Shown here: piece by piece, positions 19,752 to 46,850 of the stretch
Layout: each line of letters begins with the position of its first letter
How positions within the stretch are numbered: the first letter of the stretch is position 1
NCBI GenBank assembly: GCA_029856105.1
Contig: JAHQWH010000189.1
Coordinates: 54,263 to 118,262 of the forward strand
Length of the DNA stretch: 64,000 nucleotides
Direction of reading: 5' to 3'
Source: Promethearchaeia archaeon
Lineage (GTDB): Archaea; Asgardarchaeota; Lokiarchaeia; Sigyniarchaeales; SOKP01
Translations under genes and position numbers: made by a program
Notes under the pieces: generated by a model
Told to the model about the DNA's origin: nothing
Database searches by the model: none
Seen by the model: only the letters and a program-made list of their open reading frames with translations

Positions 19752-20365
19752 ATGGGAAGGAGAAAAAGAAAGCAACAATCTTATAAAAGAGTCAAAACAG
19801 TCCCCAAAATTTTTACTTGCCCAAACAGGTAATTATGGTTTTCCCATTTACCTTGGATTGTGGGGAAAAGGCAATAAAAGTAGAAAATTTACGAAAAAGT
19901 GTTATAGCTACAGTGAAATGTGGTCATTGTGGTTTAACAAAGGAAGTTCTGGTTAATTCCATATCAGAACCTGTTGATGCTTTTGGAGATTTTATTGATA
20001 TTCATTATGCTGATCAAGAACTTCAGAGATTAGAAAAACGCATTGAGAAATTAATAAAACAAAACGAATGGGGGGAACTTGCATTATCCTACTCAATTTT
20101 ATCGGATATTTGTAAACTTAAAGTTGTTCAAGCTTTAGAAGACGAAGATAAAGTAGATCTTGATGAGGTTAATAAATGGAAAATTAAAGTTGAAGAATAT
20201 AAAAGGCTTGAAAAAGATGCTCTACTTCAATTAGACACGCTTGAATTGGAAAAGGGTATTAGAACAGACGACGAATCTTTATTTTCAGAGCACGATGAGA
20301 GTGATATGAAAAAAGAAAAGAAAATTGAAGATATCTTTGACGATCCTGGTTTTCTTGAATTTTAA
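19752..20365 (+). CDS. elf1: Elf1-like transcription elongation factor, split by a 32-nt BHB intron
   Basis: Elf1 binds RNA polymerase and aids elongation. Exon 1 (19752-19826) encodes a basic N-terminus 'MGRRKRK...' ending 'FTCPN'. Exon 2 (19859-20365) resumes 'CGEKAIKV...VKCGHCG...EPVDAFGDFIDIHYAD', matching the Elf1 zinc ribbon and its conserved S-E-P-V-D-x-x-x-D-x-I-D motif. Unspliced, exon 1 hits TAA at 19830 in the middle of the first CxxC. Removing 19827-19858 gives the four-cysteine ribbon and a 193-residue protein with an extra charged helical C-terminal half. Naive annotation would start at TTG 19817 and lose the first two cysteines. The pairing is described under the intron entry. 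Confidence 0.85.
19827..19858 (+). other. Bulge-helix-bulge intron in elf1 mRNA (32 nt)
   Basis: The flanks and insert fold as a canonical archaeal BHB. The outer exon-exon helix pairs 19816-19820 with 19860-19864 (including G-U pairs) and extends through U-A pairs 19811-19814 with 19866-19869. The central helix is CCAA (19821-19824) with TTGG (19853-19856). The 5' bulge is 19825-19827 (ACA) and the 3' bulge is 19857-19859 (ATT). The inner helix is GGTAA (19828-19832) with TTACC (19848-19852), then ATGG with CCAT and a five-base loop. Cutting after the second base of each bulge, as the tRNA splicing endonuclease does, excises exactly 19827-19858 and restores frame. Splicing itself is predicted, not shown. 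Confidence 0.85.
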
Positions 20366-31592: not shown

Positions 31593-33065
31593 ATGAATGT
31601 AATTAAGATTGATGAGAACATTTACGAAATACCGCCAAAAACTTTAATGGCGCGTGTAGAAGGCAAAATCGCGAAGTTTCAAATGAAAGTGCCGGTACAT
31701 ATTTATGCGAACGAGTACATATTGGAAAAGATCAAGAACGACAGAACGCTTGATCAGATTAGCAACGTTGCTTGTCTTCCAGGAATACAGAAGCATGCAA
31801 TTGCGCTCTCCGATGCTCATCAAGGATATGGATTTTGTATAGGGGGTGTTGCTGGAACTGACGCCGAATCGGGTATGATTTCGCCGGGGGGTGTAGGATA
31901 CGATATTAATTGTGGTGTAAGGTTATTAAGGACAAACCTTCACCTTAAAGACATCAATAGCTCAATTCCCAGTTTATTAAATGTTATTTTTAAGAATATA
32001 CCATCAGGTTTAGGAAGTAAAGGTAAATTAAATATAAGTTATTCAGATTTAGATAATGTATTAGATAATGGTTTGAATTGGGCTTTAGAAAATGGTTATG
32101 CGATTGAAGAGGATATATTGCACTGTGAAGAAAACGGTTTTTTAAAGGATGCTAATTCAAAAGTGGTTTCCCAGAAAGCTAAGCAGAGGGGGTTAAAGCA
32201 ACTTGGTTCTTTAGGAAGTGGCAATCATTTTATAGAAATCCAGAAGGTTGATAAAATCTACAATGATTCTATCGCAAAAAAATTAGGAATTTTTGATAAG
32301 GATCAAATAACAGTTATGGTTCATACAGGGTCGCGAGCTCTTGGTCATCAAGTATGCACCGATTCTTTACGAAATGTCGAACAGGCAATGAAAAAATACG
32401 ATATCAAAGTTCCTGATCGCGAATTAGCTTGTGTACCAGCTGATACTCCCGAAGCAAAAAATTATTTAAGTAGCATGGCGTCTGCTGCAAATTTTGGGTT
32501 CAACAACCGTCAATTAATTACCCATTGGTTAAGACAATCTTTTCAAGATTATTTTAGAAAGAGTTTAGACGAGCTAGACTTTAAATTAATTTATGGTGTA
32601 TGTCATAATATTTTAAAAATAGAGGAACACGAAGTTAATGGTAAAAAAATGAAATTAAATGTTCATAGAAAAGGAGCAACCAGAGCTTTTCCACCAGGAC
32701 ACCGAGATCTACCGCAAGATTATAAAAATATTGGTCAACCAGCTTTGATTCCTGGTACTATGGGATCAGCTTCCTACTTATGCGTTGGAAGGCCAAAAGC
32801 GATGGATCTTTCTTTTGGATCCACCGCTCATGGATCTGGTAGAGTAATGTCAAGATCCAAAGCTAAAAAAATATATTGGGGTTCTAAAGTTAAAGAAGAT
32901 TTAAAAAATAGAGGAATAATTGTTAAAGCTGCTTCACCTAAAATAATTGCTGAGGAAGCTCCAGGGGCATACAAAGATATAGATCAAGTAGTACAAGTAA
33001 GTCAAGACCTTGGAATCATAGAAAAAATTGTAAGGTTAATCCCAATAGGGGTTGTAAAAGGTTAA
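31593..33065 (+). CDS. rtcB: RtcB RNA ligase (tRNA-splicing ligase)
   Basis: RtcB joins the 2',3'-cyclic phosphate and 5'-OH ends left by the splicing endonuclease. Motifs include 'SDAHQGYGFCIGGV', 'GGVGYDINCGVRLL' (Mn-ligand Cys), 'GSLGSGNHFIEI', 'HTGSRALGH', and the guanylylated His within 'NVHRKGATRAFPPGH'. I chose ATG 31593, giving 490 residues, the family length. A longer frame from 31464 only adds a non-conserved basic leader. It faces archease on the other strand. The BHB introns in this window are the obvious class of substrate. Confidence 0.97.
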   Translation: MNVIKIDENIYEIPPKTLMARVEGKIAKFQMKVPVHIYANEYILEKIKNDRTLDQISNVACLPGIQKHAIALSDAHQGYGFCIGGVAGTDAESGMISPGGVGYDINCGVRLLRTNLHLKDINSSIPSLLNVIFKNIPSGLGSKGKLNISYSDLDNVLDNGLNWALENGYAIEEDILHCEENGFLKDANSKVVSQKAKQRGLKQLGSLGSGNHFIEIQKVDKIYNDSIAKKLGIFDKDQITVMVHTGSRALGHQVCTDSLRNVEQAMKKYDIKVPDRELACVPADTPEAKNYLSSMASAANFGFNNRQLITHWLRQSFQDYFRKSLDELDFKLIYGVCHNILKIEEHEVNGKKMKLNVHRKGATRAFPPGHRDLPQDYKNIGQPALIPGTMGSASYLCVGRPKAMDLSFGSTAHGSGRVMSRSKAKKIYWGSKVKEDLKNRGIIVKAASPKIIAEEAPGAYKDIDQVVQVSQDLGIIEKIVRLIPIGVVKG

Positions 33066-44269: not shown

Positions 44270-44368
44270 AGCCTCTGGGGGGAGTTGAACCCCCGGCCTA
44301 CTGATGATTCGAACCAGTTGATTGGTTGATTTTACGAATCAGTCGCTCTACGACTAAGCCACAAAGGC
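44270..44368 (-). tRNA. tRNA-Thr(CGT) with a 37/38 intron
   Basis: Read on the minus strand from 44368, the acceptor GCCTTTG pairs with CAGAGGC, and the anticodon stem ACTGA/TCAGT carries TTCGTAA after splicing (anticodon CGT, Thr). The T-arm GGGGG/CCCCC has loop TTCAACT. The discriminator is T (44270). The 27-nt intron (44306-44332) sits at the canonical position after base 37. It lies 4 nt from the end of the GTPase gene on the other strand. Confidence 0.93.
44306..44332 (-). other. BHB intron of tRNA-Thr (canonical 37/38)
   Basis: The central helix is exon TTCG (positions 32-35) with intron CGAA, bulges are TAA and TCA, and the inner helix AATC/GGTT (with a G-U pair) closes a small loop. 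The outer helix is the anticodon stem. This is a textbook archaeal BHB: cutting after the second base of each bulge removes 27 nt and leaves the seven-base anticodon loop. Confidence 0.9.
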
Positions 44369-45839: not shown

Positions 45840-46850
45840 ATGGTTGATATAGAATTTAAATTACCATCTGATGAACCCGAGCAATTAATAATTAAATCCC
45901 AAGGCACTACTAACGAAGAATATGGGTGTGAACCGGACAAAAGAGACATAGAAACCCTCTTAAAATATGGTGTTATAAATTTAAATAAACCTAGTGGCCC
46001 AACAAGCCATGAAGTAGTCTCTTGGGCCCGTAAAATTTTAGGGATTGATAACACAGGACATGGTGGGACTTTAGATCCAAAGGTTACTGGAATATTACCT
46101 TGTGCGCTTGGTAAAGCTACAAGAGTTTTGTCGGCATTATTGTATGCGGGTAAAGAATATGTAGGAGTTATGTACTTGCACACACCTGAGAAATTAAAAA
46201 AAATAGAAAAAGTATTTAATATATTCACTGGTAAAATTTATCAATTCCCTCCTATAAAATCATCAGTAGTTAGAAAATTGAGAATAAGAGAGATATATTA
46301 TGCTAAAGTGCTTGAGGTAAACAAGAATCATGTATTATTTAAAGTCGGATGCGAAGCAGGTACATACATCCGAAAATTATGTTTTGATATGGGAGAAGCT
46401 TTATGTTCAGGAGGGCATATGTTAGAATTAAGACGAACGAGAGTAGGGAATTTTATAGAAGATAAGAGCCATGTAAATCTTCATAATTTAAAAGACGCAT
46501 ATTCTATATACCGTGAAGAAGGTGATGACTATTATTTGAGGAAAATAATTTCTCCTATGGAAAAAATGGTATCGCATTTGCCAAAAATATATGTAAGAGA
46601 TACTGCTGTTGATGCTTTATGTCATGGTGCAGATTTAGCTTCTGCTGGAACATGTTATGTAGATGCACGAATCAATAGTAATATGCAAATAGTTTACATG
46701 ACGCTTAAAAAGGAATTAATTGGTTTTGGTACTGCTAAAATGAATGCAATGAAGATTTATAAGGCAAAATCTGGAATTGTGGCTAAAACTAATAAAATAT
46801 TTATGGAACGAGGCATTTATCCTCGGTGGAACGAAATAAACAAAAAGTAA
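45840..46850 (+). CDS. cbf5: Cbf5 (dyskerin-like) pseudouridine synthase
   Basis: Cbf5 is the catalytic subunit of H/ACA RNPs, isomerising uridines in rRNA and acting alone at tRNA position 55. The catalytic block 'GHGGTLDPKVTGILPCALGKATR' has the Asp nucleophile, 'YVGVMYLH' and 'PPIKSSVVRKLRIREIYY' are family-typical, and 'CEAGTYIRKLCFDMG' completes the active-site fold. The C-terminal PUA domain starts near residue 250. In several crenarchaea this gene has a BHB intron. Here it is uninterrupted. The methyltransferase gene follows 13 nt later. Confidence 0.97.
   Translation: MVDIEFKLPSDEPEQLIIKSQGTTNEEYGCEPDKRDIETLLKYGVINLNKPSGPTSHEVVSWARKILGIDNTGHGGTLDPKVTGILPCALGKATRVLSALLYAGKEYVGVMYLHTPEKLKKIEKVFNIFTGKIYQFPPIKSSVVRKLRIREIYYAKVLEVNKNHVLFKVGCEAGTYIRKLCFDMGEALCSGGHMLELRRTRVGNFIEDKSHVNLHNLKDAYSIYREEGDDYYLRKIISPMEKMVSHLPKIYVRDTAVDALCHGADLASAGTCYVDARINSNMQIVYMTLKKELIGFGTAKMNAMKIYKAKSGIVAKTNKIFMERGIYPRWNEINKK

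Follow-up and report, generated by a model that had tools for sequence, protein, structure and literature searches.

The window, that is the whole stretch of 64,000 nt analysed here, derives from Promethearchaeia archaeon (GCA_029856105.1) and corresponds to positions 54,263-118,262 of the forward strand of contig JAHQWH010000189.1. It carries an elf1 gene in two parts (Table 1). The reading of the first part starts with ATG at 19752 and runs through MGRRKRKQQSYKRVKTVPKIFTCPN and AGG into an in-frame TAA at 19830-19832; the Elf1 frame resumes in the second part with TGT at 19859. Without nucleotides 19827-19858 both parts form a single intact Elf1 of 193 amino acids. The joined protein scores 64.6 bits with the PF05129 profile (curated cut-off 29.8) as compared to 37.4 bits for the longest unspliced ORF, and public proteins cover 100% of its length with identities of up to 95%. 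The insert divides the first CxxC of the zinc ribbon, exactly where an earlier reading of the DNA letters (the sequence-only reading) had placed it. The assembly of this organism comprises 3.66 Mb in 238 contigs, is 92% complete and has one PF05129 locus above the cut-off, elf1, at which two PF05129 matches abut at profile position 27. A second intact elf1, which the sequence-only reading had named as an argument against itself, was looked for by PF05129 profile search, and no second Elf1 above the family cut-off was found in this 92% complete assembly. The next-best match, C45 (23.2 bits, below the cut-off), is a separate short ORF containing two pairs of Cys.

Table 1. Positions of the elf1 exons, of the predicted intron with its bulge-helix-bulge (BHB) elements and of further genes in the window
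Feature	Position	Strand	Remarks
elf1 exon 1	19752..19826	+	25 codons, MGRR...FTCPN; end falls inside the first zinc-ribbon Cys pair
elf1 intron (predicted), BHB, 32 nt, phase 0	19827..19858	+	in-frame TAA 19830-19832
elf1 exon 2	19859..20365	+	168 codons and stop; CGEKAIKV...GFLEF
Outer helix, 5' arm, in exon 1	19811..19820	+	9 of 10 positions standard-paired with 19860-19869
Central helix, 5' arm CCAA, in exon 1	19821..19824	+	pairs with TTGG 19853-19856
5' bulge ACA	19825..19827	+	predicted cut after 19826
Inner helix, 5' arm GGTAA, in intron	19828..19832	+	pairs with TTACC 19848-19852
Inner helix, 3' arm TTACC, in intron	19848..19852	+	partner of GGTAA 19828-19832
Central helix, 3' arm TTGG, in intron	19853..19856	+	4 of 4 central pairs in the window
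3' bulge ATT	19857..19859	+	predicted cut after 19858
Outer helix, 3' arm, in exon 2	19860..19869	+	partner of 19811-19820
RtcB, expected exon ligase	31593..33065	+	single PF01139 hit of this genome; same contig as elf1, 11 kb further downstream
tRNA-Thr(CGU), predicted 27-nt intron	44270..44368	-	found by ARAGORN only in intron mode, missed otherwise
TruB_N/Cbf5-type gene	46029..46370	+	uninterrupted 350-aa frame

The nucleotides around both junctions can be arranged as a BHB. According to the BHB rule, which places the cuts between bulge positions 2 and 3, exactly 19827-19858 are excised, as the protein requires; the claim that precisely 32 nt are removed and that frame and CxxC are thereby restored agrees with the rule to the nucleotide. 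By a comparable criterion, 1051 BHB-like sites are present in the window on both strands (559 + 492) and over 105 intron lengths, which by simple arithmetic amounts to a chance of about 8e-5 per named position and length. Position and length of the elf1 insert are fixed by the protein. Of the 1051, 28 loose sites join reading frames, the elf1 junction among them. As such sites are not rare, the motif alone is unconvincing, and it is conservation that convinces. Folding energy is no argument for the BHB, because the minimum-energy fold of the window junction computed with ViennaRNA is a different structure (z -0.35), with the BHB lying 3.2-3.9 kcal/mol higher. Across 28 insert-bearing genes the BHB lies 0-4.3 kcal/mol above the minimum. 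As a test for the BHB, minimum-energy folding is uninformative or mildly adverse. To our knowledge, BHB introns are not strictly required to adopt the thermodynamically preferred fold.

Concerning the presence of the insert in other elf1 genes, a question raised in the sequence-only reading, we collected elf1 with the PF05129 profile from 83 genomes of the class, among them the own genome, together with 20 named public Lokiarchaeota loci and fetched stretches. This gave 86 records, of which 66 are distinct; G001 and G004 lie outside the fetched stretches. Left out of the junction reading were L001-L007, own-genome matches represented by the window, and, as lying outside the junction pattern, L078, L091-L093 and L097 (second matches of their genomes) and L098-L099. 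An insert at the identical codon boundary is present in 28 of the 66 distinct genes (carriers); the other 38, close neighbours among them, are colinear with similar flanks. Insert lengths are 28 nt (one gene), 30 nt (eight), 31 nt (13) and 32 nt (six), and in all 28 carriers excision by the BHB rule restores the frame at the same codon boundary. Close non-carriers retain the flanks; the pair L034/L082 shows zero differences over 18 nt at the end of exon 1 and 12 nt at the start of exon 2. Since 12 of the 20 named public records share the insert (eight are without it), a single assembly error is excluded. All carriers belong to four genera (g1, g4, g7, g8) of one family, and no insert was seen in the other genera read. 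Among 227 genomes of the phylum, 52 of which gave no match, the out-of-class matches listed show no internal stop; these are profile matches rather than junction reads, and that of G190 is partial (25-78). In 13 genomes PF05129 gave no match or one below the cut-off: in two of them exon 2 is truncated by a contig end, and in the remaining 11 no exon 2 was found at E 0.01.

Conservation of the motif was examined in 25 unique cases (three duplicates removed from the 28), in which each cut was shifted by 4 nt at most. Of the resulting 81 BHB registers, the one that the protein dictates ranks best. Central helix pairing amounts to 79/100 (permutation mean 67.1, maximum 73) and inner helix pairing to 64/75 (mean 38.9, maximum 50), in both instances with shuffles that ignore descent. 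The outer helix shows no covariation (96/100, permutation mean 96.0), its arms being nearly invariant and thus uninformative. In 23 of the 25 cases the wobble base of the Pro codon is paired with an intron base (A-U in 19, G-C in two, U-A in two); in the other two it is not. At least three central pairs are formed by 7% of shuffled introns. In alignment A1, which holds 11 of the 13 distinct 31-nt introns (L069 and L076, differently built, are omitted), changes on both sides occur at seven pairs, a result reached by 0 of 500 shuffles, descent again ignored, and pairing falls from 90.5% to 47-50% upon a slide by one column. Together these patterns show compensatory change in the central and inner helices. 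The canonical BHB with a 4-bp central helix claimed in the sequence-only reading holds for the window and is not the norm: the central helix has four of four pairs in seven of 28 carriers and one mismatch in the other 21. In the 31-nt group, pair 2 of this helix is broken in eight of 11, and RNAalifold omits the central helix from the fold of that group.

The exons around the insert also carry signs of constraint. Synonymous variation was compared between 27 carrier and 21 non-carrier genes (16 of the 66, outside 160-175 aa, as well as L074 and L028 were left out). From codon -6 to +4 the synonymous differences are 0.290 in carriers versus 0.541 in non-carriers, and away from the junction 0.341 versus 0.441. 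Variation is reduced in carriers at eight of the ten flanking codons, hardly so at -4 and +1, and codons -10 and +10, farther off, are likewise low. Bootstrapping of the near/far ratio gives ranges that touch, 0.69-1.20 in carriers and 1.16-1.43 in non-carriers. The constrained stretch approximately equals the reach of the 9-bp outer helix between both exons (UUUCACC-U-GC/GC-GGUGAAA). Codon use, counted in 28 carriers and 22 non-carriers (the 16 genes outside 160-175 aa left out), differs at Thr (ACC in 17/28 versus 3/22), Cys (TGC in 27/28 versus 12/22) and Phe (TTC in 23/28 versus 9/22). Because this bias is not significant once corrected for descent (eight independent pairs; median p 0.125 for Thr, 0.5 for Cys), we regard it as supporting evidence only. 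Synonymous and nonsynonymous codon differences in exon 1 are similar in carriers (2808/1123) and non-carriers (2183/868), which suggests that exon 1 is under purifying selection, as would be the case for a stretch that continues to be translated into Elf1. Exon 2 counts were misaligned by length differences and were discarded.

Taken as a whole, the junction pattern leads us to a probability of roughly 0.9 that the 32-nt insert is a BHB intron of the elf1 mRNA, cut by the tRNA splicing endonuclease EndA and joined by RtcB. EndA would cleave the transcribed message at the two 3-nt bulges, after 19826 and 19858, and RtcB would then ligate the exons to one Elf1 message, from which the full-length protein would be produced. 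Genes for both enzymes are present in the genome. Besides the gene for RtcB there are two EndA-family genes of about 200 aa each. The first product matches Aeropyrum pernix EndA (3p1z_B, E 3.2e-34) and retains the His replaced by Ala in the 3ajv mutant; the second is without the catalytic His and has Ser near that place. From these features we infer one catalytic and one structural subunit of a putative (alpha-beta)2 enzyme. Among 83 genomes of the class, EndA-family matches at E 1e-5 number two in 67, one in 14, three in one and none in one. In 22 tRNA loci, about 11 distinct tRNAs with introns are predicted by ARAGORN run in intron mode, one of them in the window; some are perhaps misread variable arms. 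A second mRNA intron in cbf5 of this genome is ruled out by the uninterrupted frame (Table 1).

An unspliced elf1 message would yield a short peptide only. In all 27 carriers with a whole exon 1, the unspliced reading ends 0-11 codons past exon 1 (L074, whose contig begins inside exon 1, is left out), which fits the earlier suggestion that unspliced message gives no functional factor. Since the two cysteines of the first CxxC are separated by a stop or frameshift in the insert, production of Elf1 would require EndA as well as RtcB and may be regulated through splicing. No protein identical to the full-length joined product of a carrier is present among the 120 listed of 504 matches. Colinear full-length proteins come close: P0015, P0018, P0021 and P0026 share 97.4-98.4% identity with L042 and L043, and P0003 shares 97.9% with L038. 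These may stem from intronless strains or be transcript-derived.

For the history of the intron, a tree was built from 56 elf1 coding sequences, ten of the 66 being omitted with exon 2 outside 160-185 aa. On the best tree the intron state changes 11 times, at least eight of these on well-supported branches. The insert described from the window is shared with relatives and is by no means fixed among them. The intron probably arose once in the family and was lost many times, a polarity that we infer; possible courses are a single gain followed by as many as about 16 losses (as counted on the tree drawing) or some regains. A repeated gain, in which BHB removal is the same and several insertions occurred at this site or the intron moved between lineages, has perhaps one chance in four. 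Beside the number of state changes, the 31-nt and the 30/32-nt groups have little primary sequence in common, and the flanks diverge beyond the rest of the gene in three of six carrier/non-carrier pairs as compared to none of eight same-state pairs. The P values of these three are 0.033, 0.011 and 0.005, uncorrected and from 14 hand-picked pairs tested. Such flank divergence is a hint of short-tract replacement by recombination. In L022/L068, L024/L056 and L032/L076 the differences are concentrated within about 30 nt around the intron site, resembling a conversion tract. Against repeated gain, phase, position and architecture are identical in four genera, for which a single origin is simpler. 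Moreover, in L032/L076 similarity to the intronless outgroups L014 and L016 is found in the flank of the carrier and not in that of the non-carrier, consistent with loss by replacement. More doubtful is the view that the elf1 intron is a mobile and dispensable element which enters and leaves by short-tract replacement of its flanks and couples Elf1 output to tRNA-splicing capacity. If this were true, a natural mRNA-splicing switch would act on a global elongation factor in relatives of the eukaryotic host cell.

Other explanations of the insert fare far worse than a BHB intron. It is very improbable that translation begins at a start inside the insert and covers exon 2 only, yielding a shortened Elf1, with exon 1 as a relic or leader peptide. 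The window insert does hold an in-frame ATG which is used by public gene calls, and 176-aa public proteins beginning MVFPFTLDCGEK form clusters P0067 (31 members), P0059 (18) and P0054 (2). However, 12 of the 28 carriers, read in the exon 2 frame from the last stop to the junction, have no ATG, GTG or TTG, exon 1 shows the same synonymous/nonsynonymous pattern as in intronless genes, and the product would be without the first CxxC.

We give still less credit to translational bypassing, in which the ribosome, aided by a hairpin, leaves the uncut RNA at a take-off codon and lands again at a matching codon beyond the insert. Examples are T4 gene 60 and the byps of yeast mitochondria, and in bypass elements take-off and landing codons match. 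The elf1 inserts are short, bear hairpins and often hold an early stop, and in ten of the 28 carriers the last exon 1 codon equals the last intron triplet. In the other 18, window included (AAC versus GAT), the codons mismatch, and bypassing does not need two 3-nt bulges flanking a covarying central helix at the junction. A broken, unused elf1 or an artefactual insert, to which the broken frames of every carrier might point, is scarcely credible given a site common to 28 distinct sequences and to 12 of 20 named records, the compensatory changes, the purifying selection on exon 1 and the lack of another Elf1 above the cut-off in the own genome. For a group I or II intron, 28-32 nt are far too short to hold the catalytic RNA core.

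Introns in archaeal mRNA have been described before. According to the available parts of Yokobori 2009 (PMC2738675), cbf5 pre-mRNA of Crenarchaeota contains introns whose splicing was shown by cDNA; most of them have an unconventional BHB cut by hetero-oligomeric EndA, and further archaeal genes have predicted, unconfirmed introns. As in this cbf5 account, a BHB-like, mostly imperfect intron interrupts an ORF at a functionally essential codon and is patchily present, which for cbf5 was ascribed to lineage-specific loss. Unlike in cbf5, the host gene is elf1 in another phylum, the intron lies between codons instead of inside one, and splicing is predicted. State changes number at least eight on the elf1 tree versus at least two losses reported for cbf5 in the same parts of PMC2738675. 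The accessible text of PMC7714728 gives in vivo and in vitro evidence for an intron in the 5'-UTR of Haloferax volcanii HVO_1309 and states cbf5 as the sole other reported archaeal mRNA case. An mRNA as EndA substrate, here predicted, is common to HVO_1309 and elf1, whereas the elf1 intron interrupts the coding frame.

With archaeal tRNA introns, which according to an excerpt of PMC11291895 occur in 92-95% of the tRNA genes of three Asgard genomes and are predicted in the own genome, the elf1 intron shares the motif and presumably the enzymes. It differs in that the elf1 exons are codons, wobble positions of which join in helices. Relaxed motifs, in the sections of PMC6379350 at hand meaning the loss of one bulge and not a central mismatch, are cut efficiently only by (alpha-beta)2 and epsilon2 EndA. 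The two separate short subunits encoded here resemble the crenarchaeal (alpha-beta)2 EndA (3p1z, 2cv8, 2zyz) to which these sections attribute broad specificity. For the Lokiarchaeal pair, such an assembly and specificity are putative. An Elf1 survey of 218 Asgard proteomes (PMC13289920) is without the word 'intron' in its accessible text; the portions available of PMC12397907 mention neither Asgard archaea nor cbf5, and those of PMC13149111 do not mention cbf5. The titles and abstract openings surveyed, which exclude preprints and the bulk of subscription journals, name neither an elf1 intron nor an intron in any Asgard protein-coding gene.

Very likely, then, the elf1 insert is an ORF-interrupting BHB mRNA intron like those of crenarchaeal cbf5, with both the gene and the phylum being new for this kind. 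To judge from the available parts of PMC2738675 and PMC7714728, crenarchaeal cbf5 has so far been the one confirmed case of introns in an archaeal coding frame. If true, elf1 would be the second ORF-interrupting case, this time in a different phylum and with numerous occupied and empty sites in close relatives. Gains and losses of the intron, how far EndA tolerates imperfect motifs and a possible regulation by splicing could then be tested directly. Gene calls would, moreover, be truncating Elf1, and public clusters of the truncated form exist already. Nothing in the analysis points to a tie between the elf1 intron and spliceosomal introns.

The bin G041 contains both an intronless elf1 (L025, on C169) and an intron-bearing one (L088, on C92), representing two copies or mixed strains (contamination 9%). 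In genus g2 (L066, L073, L085, L086, L090) elf1 is colinear and has two PF05129 matches in each frame of 253-261 aa, as if the zinc ribbon were doubled.
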